This document shows, one piece after another, positions 22,909-32,899 of a stretch of 64,000 nucleotides of DNA (positions within the stretch are counted from its first letter, which is position 1; the number at the start of each line of letters is the position of its first letter). The notes under the pieces are model-generated. The model did not search any database. It saw only the letters and a program-made list of their open reading frames with translations, and had not been told where the DNA came from. A program made the translations under genes and the position numbers. Source of the DNA: Candidatus Poseidoniaceae archaeon (lineage in GTDB: Archaea; Thermoplasmatota; Poseidoniia; Poseidoniales; Poseidoniaceae); the NCBI GenBank assembly GCA_028822845.1, contig JAPKCS010000001.1, forward strand, positions 1 to 64,000, given 5' to 3'.

Positions 22909-23008
22909 CGAGATGGGCGACTCGCAAACCCGACTTAAACGCGCTGGCGCGGCTTATCCACCGAATATGGGCGTGGGATTGACAAAGTTTGACGCTACAA
23001 GGCGGTTT

Positions 23009-26000
23009 ATGCGGCGGGCTCTTGTGATGGTTTTGCTGCTTTTTTTGCCAGCGGCAAACGCCTACGTGGCCCCCGAGCCGTCCTTCGCCGAGCCATCTGT
23101 TTTTCTTGATGGTGAAATAATTCTTGAGCGCATCGATGGATTTTGGACTCATGAAGATTGGATGGATTTAGAACGCCGGGGCCTCGAACCTCTCAGGATC
23201 ATGTCGCCAACGCACCTCCTCGCCTGGGGTGACGCCTCGATTGAAGTGCCCGGTCTAATGCACTTGGATGCACCTGCTGCTCTTTGGAAAGACGGGGGTG
23301 ATGGCGGAACCAATCCTCATGGGTTGGTCAAGATTCTTCTTGAACCACGACTGCCGGTTGATGGATTCAATTTTGTCTCAAGTGAACTCGCAACGTTGGG
23401 CATCGATATTGGAACAGAACACGTGCCCTCCCCTCTCGCAGCAGCCCATGTTGTCGAATGGCCGGCCCACCTTGGCGTCGAAGTGGTTCTTTCCTTAGAT
23501 GGGGTTCTCTGGCTTGAACCGGTGCTTGAAACCGAGGCTCGAAACATCCAGGCCGCGGCTTTAATGCAACACGGCCTCACCACCGAACACCCTGCATGGA
23601 TGCTTGGAATCAACGGTGAAGGGGTTGTAGTCGGCGTCGCTGATTCTGGACTCGATGCTGATCACGCCTGTTTTCGCAACGCTACAACCACCGGAGGCGT
23701 TGGAAGCGAGGGTGTCAATGGCACCCTATTGGTCGGGACACCCGGTGATGAACACCGGAAGGTCATGGTGCTAAACACCACCATCGATGGTGGCGACACG
23801 CAGGGGCATGCCGATTACAAACATGGGACCCACGTCGCTGGCTCACTCGCCTGTTTCAACGTCGATGATGCCCGTGCAGGACTCTATCCCTCTAATGGAT
23901 CTGCGCTCGCTCATGGTTCCACGCTTGTTTTCCAAGACATTGTTTCTGATGAGGGGTGGGTTCCACCTGAAGTCGATTTGTTGTTGGTTGAGGCAGGTAT
24001 GAACGGTGCCGTCATCCATTCGAATTCGTGGGGGGACGACACCACCGCCTACACTGCACGTACCTCGGACTTTGATGCGTGGGCATTGGCCTTCCCATGG
24101 TCTCTGGCTTTCATCGCGCCAGGTAACACGGGCTCCAGCTTGCTCGAACCAGCAAATGGACGGAATGTTGCGGCAATCGGTGCTTCGGTCAAATCTGAAG
24201 ACGGTGAGCGATGGTCTGCGTCAGCTATCGGCCCGACCGAGGCTGGGACAAACGGTATTTTTGCGCTATCGATTGGCACATTGATTCAATCTGCAAGCGC
24301 CGACAATCTCCCCGATTCATACAATGATGGTTTGCGGACCTCAAGCGGAACAAGCATGGCCACCCCAGGTGCAGCGGGTGTTGCTGCATTGATTCAGCAA
24401 TTGGTCGAAGAAGGTTGGATTTCTGGCCAAGAAGAACGGACCAACACCTCGATGAGTTTGGTGGTTCCAGAATGGGCAGATGATTCCTTAGACAATTCCA
24501 CTCTTGAAGTCGGCGTTGGTTTCACTCCCTCGGGTGCCCTATTGAGGGCCCTTCTCGCGTTGTCAACAACGCCGCTTCCAAATGCTCAACGCAACGGCGG
24601 GAACGGGGGTGACGATCTCCAGAACACATACGATGGGTGGGGGCAATTGAATCTCTCAGCTTTGCTTGATTTTACCTCACTGCGCACCGAACTGGAACAA
24701 GGGCATGCCTCACCAGCCAACGACGTATGGATTCACGACTCGTACCGATTAACAGATTCGACGCCACAACAGTGGCTGTCCCAACGGCAGGGCGGCGAAG
24801 CGCCACTCGAGAACTTGATTGCGAGCCCCTGGAACGGAAGTGGCGCCAATGGCCCGTTCCTACAGACCGGTGAAACATGGGTTCAGCGGTTCACGCCTGG
24901 ACCGAACGCTGATCTGAATGTCCGAATGGCCCATATCGCCTCACCAGAACCAACCGCTGTGAACGATTTGCAACTTATCGCCCGTCTTTCTGATGGGCGC
25001 ATTGCTGTTGGCGGCATCGCTGACAATGATGGCAGTGCCACGCTGTTCTACAGCGATGCTGATTTGAACAACGACTCAACCTTCCCCTCGAGCGATGAAA
25101 CAACACATGCCCTCCGTTTAGACGCCGCCTCACTTGTTGGTGTTGATTGGATTGAAATTGAAGTTCGTGCCCGTTTCGTTGCTCCCGGTAATGTTTCTGA
25201 TGGCGTAGGGCTCGATGGGACGCGAACTGGTTTTGCGCTTGCTGTCAAAGGCGTGGTTCGCGATGCCGTTGATTGGAACGACGCTGATGGTGATGCAGTG
25301 CCTAACATTGAGGATGGTTGTCCAAATCAAAACGCAACTGGATGGGATCAAGACCAGGATGGTTGTTTGGACGATGCAGATGGCGATCAAGTGACTGATG
25401 ACCTCGATGTGTGCCCCACGGTCAATGCTTCGATGTACGACGCCAACAGCGATGGGTGCATTGACGATACGGATGGTGACGGCGTTCCTGACAACTTGGA
25501 TGGGTGCCTGACAACCGTTGTCGATGATGCTTGGCCGATAGATGATACCGGCTGCCGCCCCCTCGACATACGTCCGCAAATTGATCTTATTTTCACACCA
25601 GCGAACGGCTCCATGTGGGAATCTGAAGTGCGCGTCAAATGGTCTGTGGTCGATGGCGATAATGACAGTTTTTACACCGGAGCGCAAATTATGGTGCTTG
25701 GCCAACAATCAGATGCGGAAGCATACAGCATTGCAGAATGTGAATACCAGCCCGGAAATGGGACGTTGTTTGAATGTACCTGGAATGCTGAAACCTCATT
25801 GCCGATTTGGAGCATTGAAGAATCGTTGTTGAGGATCGATGTCTTTGTCCAAAGTTCAAACGAATCGCCCGAAGCGAGGAACGAGCGAATTGTGGTTCAG
25901 TCGAGCAACCTCTTCCAAGCAAAATACGACAACGAATTCTTTGATGGGGATGAAGTCACAAATCCTTCGGAAAAGCAAGGGGTTGCATCTCAAGGACGAG

Positions 26001-26158
26001 CGATGTTCTGGGGCATCGGTGGACTTCTTGTGGCATGCCTGATGGCTTACCGTCTCGGATCACAGAACCTACGACCGCAAACGCAGCCCGAGGTTGCTTC
26101 GCCCTTCGTTGAGTCGGTCCGCGGCACCAGTTTAGATGGGTCGACAGAAAATGAGTGA
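23009..26158 (+). CDS. Cell-surface subtilisin-like (S8) protease with Ca-binding repeats
   Basis: About 1,049 aa from the ATG at 23009, which begins a signal peptide (MRRALVMVLLLFLPAANAY). The S8 triad is visible: Asp in VVVGVADSGLDADH, His in HGTHVAGSLA and Ser in SSGTSMATPGAAGV. A beta-rich region follows, then three acidic thrombospondin-type-3-like repeats (DADGDAVPNIEDGCPNQ, DQDQDGCLDDADGDQVTDD, DTDGDGVPDNLDGC) that should bind calcium. A second beta domain and a C-terminal hydrophobic anchor (GIGGLLVACLMAYRLG) follow. It probably degrades proteins outside the cell while membrane-tethered. In-frame codons to 22913 precede the signal peptide and are unlikely to be translated. Confidence 0.92.
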   Translation: MRRALVMVLLLFLPAANAYVAPEPSFAEPSVFLDGEIILERIDGFWTHEDWMDLERRGLEPLRIMSPTHLLAWGDASIEVPGLMHLDAPAALWKDGGDGGTNPHGLVKILLEPRLPVDGFNFVSSELATLGIDIGTEHVPSPLAAAHVVEWPAHLGVEVVLSLDGVLWLEPVLETEARNIQAAALMQHGLTTEHPAWMLGINGEGVVVGVADSGLDADHACFRNATTTGGVGSEGVNGTLLVGTPGDEHRKVMVLNTTIDGGDTQGHADYKHGTHVAGSLACFNVDDARAGLYPSNGSALAHGSTLVFQDIVSDEGWVPPEVDLLLVEAGMNGAVIHSNSWGDDTTAYTARTSDFDAWALAFPWSLAFIAPGNTGSSLLEPANGRNVAAIGASVKSEDGERWSASAIGPTEAGTNGIFALSIGTLIQSASADNLPDSYNDGLRTSSGTSMATPGAAGVAALIQQLVEEGWISGQEERTNTSMSLVVPEWADDSLDNSTLEVGVGFTPSGALLRALLALSTTPLPNAQRNGGNGGDDLQNTYDGWGQLNLSALLDFTSLRTELEQGHASPANDVWIHDSYRLTDSTPQQWLSQRQGGEAPLENLIASPWNGSGANGPFLQTGETWVQRFTPGPNADLNVRMAHIASPEPTAVNDLQLIARLSDGRIAVGGIADNDGSATLFYSDADLNNDSTFPSSDETTHALRLDAASLVGVDWIEIEVRARFVAPGNVSDGVGLDGTRTGFALAVKGVVRDAVDWNDADGDAVPNIEDGCPNQNATGWDQDQDGCLDDADGDQVTDDLDVCPTVNASMYDANSDGCIDDTDGDGVPDNLDGCLTTVVDDAWPIDDTGCRPLDIRPQIDLIFTPANGSMWESEVRVKWSVVDGDNDSFYTGAQIMVLGQQSDAEAYSIAECEYQPGNGTLFECTWNAETSLPIWSIEESLLRIDVFVQSSNESPEARNERIVVQSSNLFQAKYDNEFFDGDEVTNPSEKQGVASQGRAMFWGIGGLLVACLMAYRLGSQNLRPQTQPEVASPFVESVRGTSLDGSTENE

Positions 26159-26245
26159 TTTTGGGCTGTATGGCCCGGTTTCGACATGGTGGGTCCGTTC
26201 ATTACCAAGGTGAACCTTGAAGGGTGGTGGCATCCTCGCCAGCAT

Positions 26246-26270: not shown

Positions 26271-27275
26271 ATGAGTGACCGCCTTTATGTTGGAATTGAC
26301 CTTGGTACCTACCAATCGACCATTGCCTCGAGCGCCGGAGAACGACACACGATCGAAACTGTCGTGGGCCGACCAAAGGACCCTGTAGCACGAAACTTCC
26401 TCGGCCGAGATGTGCTGTTTGGAAGCGACGCCCTCAAGAACAAACTCGCTTGCAACCTTTACCGCCCAATGGCTGCCGGTGTTGCTCAAGACGACGAAGC
26501 AAACTTGGCAGCTGCCAAGGCCTTCGTGTCCCACCTCCTCGAAACAGTTGATCCTGAAGAATACGACGAGGTCTTCGGCGTCATCTGCTCGCCAAGTCAC
26601 GTCTCGTTCACTGACAAGAGCAACCTCGTTGCTACGCTCCGTGGCCAAGTCAACGCCATCATGGTCGTGACCGAACCCTTCGCTACCGCCTACGGTATTG
26701 GTGAAATTGCAAGTTCCATCGTTGTCGATATCGGCGCAGGAACCACAGACATTGCCCGTATCTACGGAACATTCCCTACCGATGAAGACCAAGTCACCAT
26801 CCAAGAAGCTGGCGACTGGCTCGACCACGAATTGATGGGCCTCATCCGAAAGAAATTCACAGGCGCTCAAATCACCAAGGACATGGTCCGAAAGTGGAAG
26901 GAAGAAGTCTCCTATGTTGGTGGCGAAGTCCGAGAAGCAACTGTTGAACTCTCCGTTGAAGGAAAGAAGCAAGTTGTCGACATCGGCGACTTGGTCTCAC
27001 AAGCCTGCGAATTGATCGTGCCAAAGATTGGCAACGCAATCAAGCGCATTGTGGCTGAAGCTGACCCTGAGTACCAACCTGTCCTCCGCAACAACATCAT
27101 CCTCTCCGGTGGCGGCTCCCTCATCGACGGTATTGCAGCTCGCATGACCGATGAAATCTCCGATATTGGCGACGTCACTGTATGGTGCGTTGAAGACCCA
27201 ATTAACGCCGTTGCAAACGGTGCTTTGCTGCTCGCTGGCGAAATGCCAGACGACATGTACACTGCCATCAACTGA
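26271..27275 (+). CDS. Actin-like ATPase (MreB/MamK-type)
   Basis: A 334-aa actin/Hsp70-fold protein from the ATG at 26271 after GGTGATGAAT; the ATG at 26265 is the alternative. Phosphate-1 is GIDLGTYQSTI (8-18), the connecting Glu is in VVTEPFATAYGIG (E135), phosphate-2 is VVDIGAGTTDIARI (151-164) and the adenosine motif is IILSGGGSLIDGI (276-288). Length matches bacterial MreB/MamK rather than the longer crenactins or Hsp70, and there is no substrate-binding domain. It probably forms ATP-dependent filaments. No amphipathic N-terminal helix is apparent. It is followed, past a hairpin, by a long coiled-coil protein. An MreB-like role in an archaeon would be notable. Confidence 0.85.
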   Translation: MSDRLYVGIDLGTYQSTIASSAGERHTIETVVGRPKDPVARNFLGRDVLFGSDALKNKLACNLYRPMAAGVAQDDEANLAAAKAFVSHLLETVDPEEYDEVFGVICSPSHVSFTDKSNLVATLRGQVNAIMVVTEPFATAYGIGEIASSIVVDIGAGTTDIARIYGTFPTDEDQVTIQEAGDWLDHELMGLIRKKFTGAQITKDMVRKWKEEVSYVGGEVREATVELSVEGKKQVVDIGDLVSQACELIVPKIGNAIKRIVAEADPEYQPVLRNNIILSGGGSLIDGIAARMTDEISDIGDVTVWCVEDPINAVANGALLLAGEMPDDMYTAIN

Positions 27276-27295
27276 GCACGGTCGTATCCAAAGGG

Positions 27296-27324
27296 TACAA
27301 AACCACCCTTGGTGGTGCTGTTTT
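27296..27324 (+). terminator. GC hairpin plus T-run after the actin-like gene
   Basis: ACCACC-CTT-GGTGGT (27302-27316) is a perfect 6-bp stem, extended by flanking AAAA and TTTT, and followed by GCTGTTTT. It resembles an intrinsic terminator or attenuator between the actin-like and coiled-coil genes, so the two may be only partly co-transcribed. Confidence 0.5.
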
Positions 27325-27368
27325 GACTGGGAAAGTTCAAGTGCAGTTGGGCGTGGATAGTCACCTGT

Positions 27369-28640
27369 ATGACCATCGACTCGACTGGAACAAGCGGCAT
27401 TCGCCGACTCGATGACGCATCTGGGGACGAACGAGCAGCCCTTGAAGGGATGCTCAAAGGCTACCCCGTAGAGCAACTCGTAGAAGAGGTGCTCATTGCA
27501 TGGCAAGAGCTTGCCGCTCGGAACGAAGAGATGGTGACTGTCAAGCAACGGCTCCGTGTGCTCGAACTCGATCTCGCTGAACGAGAAGATATGGTTGCAC
27601 CCGAAGTAGCGCGACTGAACCAAGTCGAAGCAACGCTCCAAGAGAGCGAAGCAAAAATCATCCACCTCGACCGACTTTTGGCAGACGCCCGAAAAGAGTT
27701 GGCAAGTCAACAATCCTCTCTATCACAAGAAGAGCGAGATTCAATGTTCACTGAAAATGGACAACTAAGGAATTTGTCTGTTGAACAAGACGAAGTGATT
27801 GCAGAACTTGAAGGTCGAATTAACCAGATGGTCGAAGCATTGGAGCGAGCTGCTGAGGCCGGCCTCACCTCGGTCACAGCAGAAGAAGTTCGCAGTCTCA
27901 AATCAAAGCTCGATGCTGCCTTGATGCAGAACGACGCTGAACAAGCCGCCAACAAGGCGCTCGAAGAAGAGCGTCAACGCCTTCGAGACATTGCCGACCG
28001 ATTGCGCGGTCTGCTCGATGCCCGTGATGGACGGCTTGGTGAACTTGAAGAGCAGATTGAGCGGGTGATGCAAGGTCCCCGTTCTGTTTCCGCTGAACAC
28101 GATTACCTCGTCGAACAGATTGAAGAATTGAAGCGACGGTTGCTCGAACGAAACCGAGAATACGAGTCGCTGCGACGCCGTGAGCGCCGCTTGCACAACG
28201 ACGTGTTTGAGCGCGATGAACGGGTTCAACAAATCACACTGACACTCACCGACATGGAATCAGCCCTTCAGGATCGAACCGCTGAACTACGAGAACTTGA
28301 GGGCCAACGTGAATCAATGTCTCATGAATTGGATTCCGTGCGCCGCGGAGAACGAACTCGAGAAGTTGTTGGGCGTGTCTTCGCAGATTCGCTTTCACTC
28401 GTTCGTACGCATGATGCACGAGATGCAAAGCGCGAGGCTTACAGCAACCAACCTGACAAAACACGAACACTCTCGACCCCTGAACCGAGTGACATGGCCG
28501 GCCTAGCAGATGGTGGCCGCGTTGATTTGTCTGTTTCAGAAAAGGACATCACCCCCGGCATGGATGTCGACGGTGTTCGACCACCATCTCCTGGTGGCTC
28601 CGGCGACCCAGTCATCTATGATGACGAGGACCAAAGTTGA
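27369..28640 (+). CDS. Long coiled-coil protein, cytoskeleton-like
   Basis: A 423-aa acidic protein that is heptad-rich almost throughout residues 45-345 (for example RVLELDLAERED, LRGLLDARDGRLGELEEQIERV, LKRRLLERNREYESLRRRERR), predicting a long parallel coiled coil. The first 45 residues (KGYPVEQLVEEVLIAWQELAARN) look like a separate short helical cap. The C-terminal 80 residues are low-complexity, Pro/Asp/Ser-rich and probably disordered. No signal peptide or membrane helix. It directly follows the actin-like gene with 93 bases between. A filament-associated or structural role is inferred; SMC-type heads are absent. Confidence 0.8.
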   Translation: MTIDSTGTSGIRRLDDASGDERAALEGMLKGYPVEQLVEEVLIAWQELAARNEEMVTVKQRLRVLELDLAEREDMVAPEVARLNQVEATLQESEAKIIHLDRLLADARKELASQQSSLSQEERDSMFTENGQLRNLSVEQDEVIAELEGRINQMVEALERAAEAGLTSVTAEEVRSLKSKLDAALMQNDAEQAANKALEEERQRLRDIADRLRGLLDARDGRLGELEEQIERVMQGPRSVSAEHDYLVEQIEELKRRLLERNREYESLRRRERRLHNDVFERDERVQQITLTLTDMESALQDRTAELRELEGQRESMSHELDSVRRGERTREVVGRVFADSLSLVRTHDARDAKREAYSNQPDKTRTLSTPEPSDMAGLADGGRVDLSVSEKDITPGMDVDGVRPPSPGGSGDPVIYDDEDQS

Positions 28641-31989: not shown

Positions 31990-32035
31990 TTACATGAACT
32001 TATAGCGGCTGGGTGCTGGATTTAATTTGAGTCCA
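31990..32035 (+). promoter_or_regulatory. Probable rhodopsin promoter and leader
   Basis: GAACTTATAGC (about 31996-32006) is a TATA-like element about 30 bases before the rhodopsin ATG at 32036, leaving room for only a very short leader. No GAGGTG-type site precedes the ATG, so the mRNA may be nearly leaderless. The 97 bases between the ABC gene and the rhodopsin hold nothing else visible. Confidence 0.4.
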
Positions 32036-32899
32036 ATGATAAATCAAAAATTTTCGAAGACCTCAAGCCTGCTTATAGTCGCAACCTTTGCTCTTGCAAT
32101 GGCCTCAACGGTCAGTGCAGCGGCCGTAGGTGAAATGGGTGAAACCGGTCTGCCGGCATTCCTCGAAGATGGTACGAATGATGGTCTTGAAACATTGACG
32201 TTCTTCTTGTTCTTCGTAGGTTACATCGCAATGGGAGCAGCCTTTGTCTTCTTCATGAGCGAGCGGAGCAACGTTGCACCTCAATACCGCACAACAATGA
32301 CCATCTCTGCACTCATTGTCGGTATTGCTGCTTTCCACTACTACTACATGCGTGGAGTTTACGCTGATTTCGGCGTCGTCTCTGTCGAGTACCGTTACAT
32401 GGACTGGATCATTACTGTCCCGTTGATGGCCCTCAAGTTCCCTTCCCTCGTCGGCAAGGGCGCCATCACTGACACAAAGTTCGCCGGTCTTGGATTCACT
32501 GGAATCTGTTTCACAGGCGCACTTATCATGGTTGGATTTGGCTACGCTGGAGAAGCTGGTCTCATGAACGGTATGGCCGCTCTCATTCTTGGTGGAATGG
32601 GCTGGGCTATGATCATCGTCGCAACAGGAACGCCATGGACCTCTGGTCTTGGTGTTGACAACTCAAAGATCGCTCCTGAGTTGATCTGGTCGACAAACGC
32701 ACTCCGCTGGTTCATCGTCGTTGGATGGGTCATCTACCCAATCGGCTACCTCTTCAGCCCTGGTGCAGATATCCTTGACGGAAACCAAGAAGCAATGGCT
32801 GTTGCTTACAACATTGCAGACATCATCAACAAGATCGGCTTCGGTGTCGTTGCTTGGATGGGTGCTAAGAAAGCAACAGAAGCCTTGGCTTCCAAGTGA
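32036..32899 (+). CDS. Proteorhodopsin-type light-driven pump
   Basis: A microbial rhodopsin of about 287 aa with an N-terminal signal-like segment (LLIVATFALAMASTVSAAA) and seven helices. Retinal binds Lys in ADIINKIGFG of helix G. Counting from an upstream TTG at 32027 as residue 1, that Lys is 269. Helix C reads YRYMDWIITVPLMALKF, so the acceptor Asp (126) and Thr (130) are kept, the tuning position carries Met (134), and the usual donor Glu is Lys (137): a D-T-K motif. The His corresponding to proteorhodopsin H75 is present (FHYYYMRG). It should be a green-absorbing outward proton pump. Retinal synthesis genes are not in the window. Confidence 0.95.
   Translation: MINQKFSKTSSLLIVATFALAMASTVSAAAVGEMGETGLPAFLEDGTNDGLETLTFFLFFVGYIAMGAAFVFFMSERSNVAPQYRTTMTISALIVGIAAFHYYYMRGVYADFGVVSVEYRYMDWIITVPLMALKFPSLVGKGAITDTKFAGLGFTGICFTGALIMVGFGYAGEAGLMNGMAALILGGMGWAMIIVATGTPWTSGLGVDNSKIAPELIWSTNALRWFIVVGWVIYPIGYLFSPGADILDGNQEAMAVAYNIADIINKIGFGVVAWMGAKKATEALASK

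Follow-up and report, generated by a model that had tools for sequence, protein, structure and literature searches.

A Candidatus Poseidoniaceae archaeon carries an actin gene, actB, whose product represents, judged by its sequence, a new subfamily within a known actin clade. The gene that follows it encodes a long coiled-coil protein, ccB, and the arrangement of the two as actin and partner appears to be undescribed. No description of MamK-type actins in Poseidoniales was found in the literature searched, outside which lie most subscription journals and preprints. Poseidoniales (Marine Group II) are abundant in surface oceans and, to our knowledge, uncultured. For this order there is now a concrete system of two actins, with a candidate partner for one of them, a segment of that partner predicted to be linked to actin, and a naturally truncated form. 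The MamK-salactin clade is also widened in archaea.

The actB-ccB locus

The gene pair lies in a window of 64,000 nucleotides, which is the whole stretch of DNA analyzed, and the features relevant to it are as follows.

22913..26158 (+): S8 subtilase (1081 aa), hydrophobic segment close to its C-terminal end (PF00082, 1.4e-21)
26271..27275 (+): actB, a 334-aa actin-like ATPase of the MamK-salactin clade, ATG start (profiles, trees, model)
26673..26675 (+): actB Glu135 in TEPF (connect-1), aligned with MamK Glu143 of PDB 5jyg and invariant
26727..26750 (+): actB phosphate-2 motif DIGAGTTD (residues 153-160), with Asp153 aligned with MamK Asp161
27108..27113 (+): actB adenosine motif, Gly280-Gly281, invariant in a 38-sequence alignment
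27369..28640 (+): ccB, a 423-aa coiled-coil protein, proposed partner of actB (heptads, model, conservation)
27369..27854 (+): ccB N-terminal module, residues ~1-162, stand-alone in actin-less genera
27966..28403 (+): ccB C-terminal core, residues 200-345, near-invariant and found only in actin-bearing genomes
28449..28637 (+): ccB disordered C-terminal tail, residues 361-423 (pLDDT <50 over 360-420)

The actB protein contains phosphate-1 (GIDLGT), connect-1 (TEPF), phosphate-2 (DIGAGTTD) and adenosine (GGG) motifs, wherein the key residues are invariant across the 38 aligned sequences. Glu135 and Asp153, likewise aligned and invariant, are the equivalents of MamK Glu143 and Asp161, which we take to be functionally important positions. 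Starting instead from a TTG at 26217 would lengthen the protein by 18 aa. Pfam matches are to MreB_Mbl (2.8e-24) and Actin (1.7e-16), and the AlphaFold model is an actin fold over its full length (pLDDT 93.7). Because all 334 aa are modeled as actin fold, the substrate-binding C-terminal domain of Hsp70/DnaK is absent from actB; a 632-aa Hsp70-sized ORF is a separate gene.

The ccB gene starts 93 nt downstream of actB on the same strand. Its heptad-like fraction is 0.63 versus a mean of 0.20 for shuffled sequences, and an AlphaFold model of one chain from a single sequence (pTM 0.23) places helices at residues 34-115, 120-163, 171-234, 242-325 and 332-359, followed by a disordered tail at 360-420. 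A sequence-only reading of this DNA had described a 334-aa actin with complete motifs and no Hsp70 C-terminal domain, followed by a 423-aa near-continuous coiled coil with a disordered tail, and both descriptions are borne out by the profiles, alignment, heptads and models. Pfam returned nothing significant for ccB, and a PDB sequence search gave no match at E 0.001. Homologs are 92% down to 46% identical to the window copy. Among scorable pairs, dN/dS for actB and ccB is 0.02-0.10 (dS is saturated in several ccB pairs), which indicates strong purifying selection and thus argues that this pair of ORFs is not a product of chance. Some 3.4 kb downstream of ccB, at window positions 32027-32899, the same contig encodes a bacteriorhodopsin-family protein (PF01036, 1.2e-31).

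Family assignment of actB

The best NCBIfam model for actB is MamK (NF040964; 5.8e-101, 337.9 bits), followed by BeeR (2.6e-61), MreB (3.5e-23) and salactin (3.9e-8). None of the curated cut-offs for the MamK, BeeR, MreB, salactin and crenactin models is reached by actB, and the MamK cut-off of 400 bits also exceeds the 363.2 bits of the second actin of the home genome, actA. The closest PDB sequences are MamK filaments (1.5e-63). The actB model is matched best by MamK 5ljv (Z 44.0, rmsd 1.5 Å over 324 residues) and next by BeeR 8r2n (Z 42.1, rmsd 2.6 Å over 329 residues).

In trees, actB shares a clade with MamK-like and salactin-type proteins, and MreB is set apart at full support. Within that clade, the Poseidoniales actins branch outside every one of the bacterial MamK-like, the Methanoperedens-type and the salactin-type sequences that were sampled. 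How the deepest branches are ordered is uncertain, since MreB sits on a long branch and the last tree took in only three salactin-type sequences, and the root placement beside actB may be a long-branch effect. On this sequence evidence, actB is a separate subfamily within the MamK-salactin clade and is neither an MreB nor an Hsp70. The earlier label of an MreB/MamK-like actin therefore holds for the MamK-salactin clade and fails for MreB, as judged by both NCBIfam and the trees. A placement within DnaK/Hsp70 or Ta0583-like monomers, named beforehand as one refuting outcome, was not seen. The accompanying generalization that actins of this size are mainly bacterial does not stand, as salactin (PMC10746226) and the Methanoperedens-type actins are archaeal relatives.

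Distribution and gene order

We surveyed 145 genomes of the order, which we take to be Poseidoniales, comprising 72 of the home family (f1, presumably Poseidoniaceae) and 73 of the sister family (f2, presumably Thalassarchaeaceae), along with 389 genomes of the phylum. MamK-like genes, usually two, occur in 85 of the 145 genomes, which include every home-family genome (72/72) and 13 of the 73 from the sister family. The sole further match among the 389 phylum genomes is in a 5-Mb Thermoplasmata bin, SG225.bin14. Viral contigs yielded no match to the window actin when searched with close-relative patterns. Full-length ccB, or fragments of the full type, is present in 80 genomes, all of which carry MamK-like genes, and in 0 of the 60 genomes that lack them.

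The order and orientation S8-actB-ccB is kept in 21 of 22 actB loci, counting the window, and these loci span genera of the two families. One of the 21 has ccB split into two ORFs. The exception is genus g9, in which a full-length ccB is retained ~63 kb from actB. The other refuting outcome named beforehand, a coiled-coil gene not conserved beside the actin, was not observed. In every locus examined, the S8 protease lies directly upstream of actB, and it is missing where actB is missing. The tail of the protease beyond the hydrophobic segment is not conserved. Besides the protease, the conserved neighbors of the pair are housekeeping genes.

The second actin, actA (344 aa; G000:C12), is a paralog ~46% identical to actB. 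Each family has the two paralogs, which dates their split to before the families separated. Preceding actA is a conserved gene for a zinc-ribbon protein of ~340 aa (L002:275-1318), which is found in 83 genomes of the order, all of them actin-bearing. A 93-aa coiled-coil ORF downstream of actA in the home genome was considered as a parallel pair and rejected, as it has no counterpart at 20 other actA-side loci; across those loci and the home genome, actA has no conserved coiled-coil neighbor.

Natural truncation of ccB

In 22 actin-less genomes of the sister family, a short ccB homolog covering residues ~12 to ~162-166 forms an independent protein of 153-183 aa. We fetched 18 of these 22 loci and called the homolog in 17. 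Most are located at a syntenic site between a ribosomal L18A/LX gene (PF01775) and a gene of the PcrB/GGGP-synthase family (PF01884), and in the actin-less genera this site is devoid of both S8 and actB. Homology to ccB stops near residue 162; in the full-length protein a conserved AAEAGLTSVTAEEVR motif comes shortly after this point, followed by the near-invariant core of residues 200-345. The retained piece of ccB thus sits between a lost actin and a lost ccB C-terminus, a pattern that a single deletion cannot explain. The absence of the C-terminal core from actin-less loci suggests that this core is probably the actin-linked part of ccB, dependent on actin. A GGGP-synthase tree unites the actin-less genera in a single group (SH-aLRT 89), and for this reason the loss of actin together with the ccB C-terminus was probably a single evolutionary event. 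The actin-less lineage has smaller genomes, and streamlining could explain the co-loss.

Actin and coiled-coil gene pairs in other organisms

In the same strand orientation, coiled-coil genes directly follow related actins in Ca. Methanoperedens and two relatives as well, where the encoded proteins are 203, 888 and at least 1654 aa long. Two further Halobacteriota groups have downstream coiled-coil genes encoding 447-556 aa (four loci) and 168-207 aa (five loci), and the SG225.bin14 actin is directly followed by a partly coiled protein of 618 aa (167 residues by a crude measure). The remaining salactin loci, taken as mostly haloarchaeal, have no adjoining downstream coiled-coil gene. With partner genes set aside, ~3% of the surrounding archaeal genes reach an equal coiled-coil score, and most of these are a prefoldin gene that recurs in actB loci. 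Two Methanoperedens partners (L199:6086-6694 and L197:1321-3984) begin with an N-terminal archaellum FlaD/E domain (PF04659; 3.5e-14 and 2e-8), and no domain common to ccB and the other archaeal partners was detected. The SG225.bin14 MamK, which lies with the 618-aa protein in L082:9828-12979, exceeds the family cut-off at 435 bits. Bacterial contamination was considered as its source and rejected, as the contig carries, on reading its sequence, archaeal-type RNA polymerase B and Kae1-like genes.

In bacteria, a gene for N-acetylmuramoyl-L-alanine amidase stands immediately before 32 MamK-like genes (within L085-L160) from Nitrospirota, Desulfobulbaceae, Acidobacteriota and other groups, and it often overlaps the actin gene by ~30 nt (one member matches Amidase_3 at 1.3e-47). 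Some MamK-like genes of Planctomycetota and Latescibacterota have coiled-coil neighbors either upstream or downstream (L113, L121, L131, L155, L142).

The recurrence of actin and coiled-coil pairs in archaea suggests an overlooked cytoskeleton module, and this recurring archaeal arrangement is approachable in tractable methanogens. We raise only tentatively the broader and rather doubtful idea that a MamK/salactin-type actin with a downstream coiled-coil gene is an old euryarchaeal module, wherein the partners evolve rapidly or are exchanged for others and connect a conserved filament to varied cargo, including archaellum-type machinery in Methanoperedens.

Possible functions of the actB-ccB system

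We lean, with modest conviction, toward a positioning or segregating cytoskeletal system that is unrelated to magnetosomes. An ATP-driven filament organized by ccB is proposed by analogy with MamK, BeeR, salactin and MamK/Mad28. As a distinct archaeal branch of the MamK-salactin clade, actB would be the ATP-driven, filament-forming actin, and ccB would be its dedicated partner. The C-terminal coiled-coil core of ccB (residues ~163-360) would bind or cross-link the filament. The N-terminal module (~1-162), which may be able to work without actin, would bind another target, for example an envelope or polar anchor. Together with actA and the membrane-linked S8 protease, actB and ccB would position or segregate some component of the cell in those members of the order that have larger genomes. 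The computed basis of this model comprises the family and fold, the conserved motifs, the order and co-occurrence of the genes, and the truncation of ccB along module lines; polymerization, physical binding, the actin-binding end of ccB and the cellular role are what we infer from it.

Other roles can be envisioned for the same genes. The actin filament might move chromosomes as in salactin or ParM systems, with ccB serving as an adaptor between filament and DNA. Salactin filaments grow from the poles and affect DNA distribution in low-phosphate, low-ploidy cells, and the nearest family to salactin is MamK (PMC10746226); moreover, salactin-type and Methanoperedens-type actins share the clade of actB. 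However, NCBIfam and Pfam profile searches found no recognizable DNA-binding domain in ccB, the conserved neighbors are a protease and housekeeping genes, and actin-less relatives manage without the system, such that we regard DNA partition as unlikely. We would give about the same low weight to a cell-shape or envelope system, wherein a ccB-anchored filament guides envelope remodeling with the membrane-linked S8 protease. The constant position of this protease upstream of actB and its absence together with actB are consistent with such a role, as is the comparison with the bacterial MamK-like genes adjoining a cell-wall amidase, but a protease tail that is not conserved past the hydrophobic segment argues against it.

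The FlaD/E domain of the Methanoperedens partners brings to mind a device that positions the archaellum or a chemotaxis pole. This seems very improbable for actB-ccB, as a PF04659 search found no FlaD/E match in ccB and archaellin does not track actin within the order: genus g16 has actin without archaellin, whereas g13 and g20 have archaellin without actin. The proposed co-occurrence is therefore unsupported, and the conservation of actB-ccB in archaellum-free g16 suggests a functional system there. There might also be no dedicated partnership at all, with ccB a chance neighbor that was shortened through genome reduction. A co-loss that probably happened only once and the broken linkage in g9 would both fit this explanation. 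We nevertheless consider it quite unlikely, given that adjacency spans two families, that one ccB module was selectively retained between two lost stretches, and that the actin and coiled-coil arrangement recurs in other archaea.

Comparison with known systems

MamK filaments align magnetosomes in bacteria. With MamK, actB shares the actin fold, size, catalytic motifs and its best sequence and structure match, but it does not group with Magnetospirillum MamK in the trees and falls below the family cut-off. No magnetosome genes were recognized among the neighbors of actB, and the magnetochrome profile PF18509 had no match anywhere, including in the controls. Salactin resembles actB in being archaeal, of similar size and from the same wider clade. 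It differs in that actB scores 32.8 bits against a salactin cut-off of 400 (NF053533) and occupies a separate branch, and in that haloarchaeal-type loci lack the adjoining coiled-coil gene of the actB locus.

BeeR of Verrucomicrobiota (PDB 8r2n) is the second-best family and structure match, although actB reaches 207.5 bits against a cut-off of 530 (NF053558). BeeR forms three-stranded tubes and is marked by an N-terminal extension of 30-50 aa (PMC11929497), which actB lacks, as its profile match begins at residue 5 of 334. The fold and motifs of actB are common to MreB as well, yet with MreB models actB attains only 82 bits (cut-off 293) and 72 bits (cut-off 365.75) and lies outside the fully supported MreB clade. 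Crenactin is more remote in sequence (14.4 bits against a cut-off of 630; NF053560) but is likewise an archaeal actin, accompanied by arcadins and regulated by an accessory protein (PMC5173319), which may be comparable to the proposed pairing of actB with ccB. A similar parallel is offered by Desulfovibrio magneticus, in which coiled-coil Mad proteins that interact in two-hybrid tests work alongside MamK and Mad28 (PMC12748827), much as ccB may serve as the coiled-coil partner of actB.
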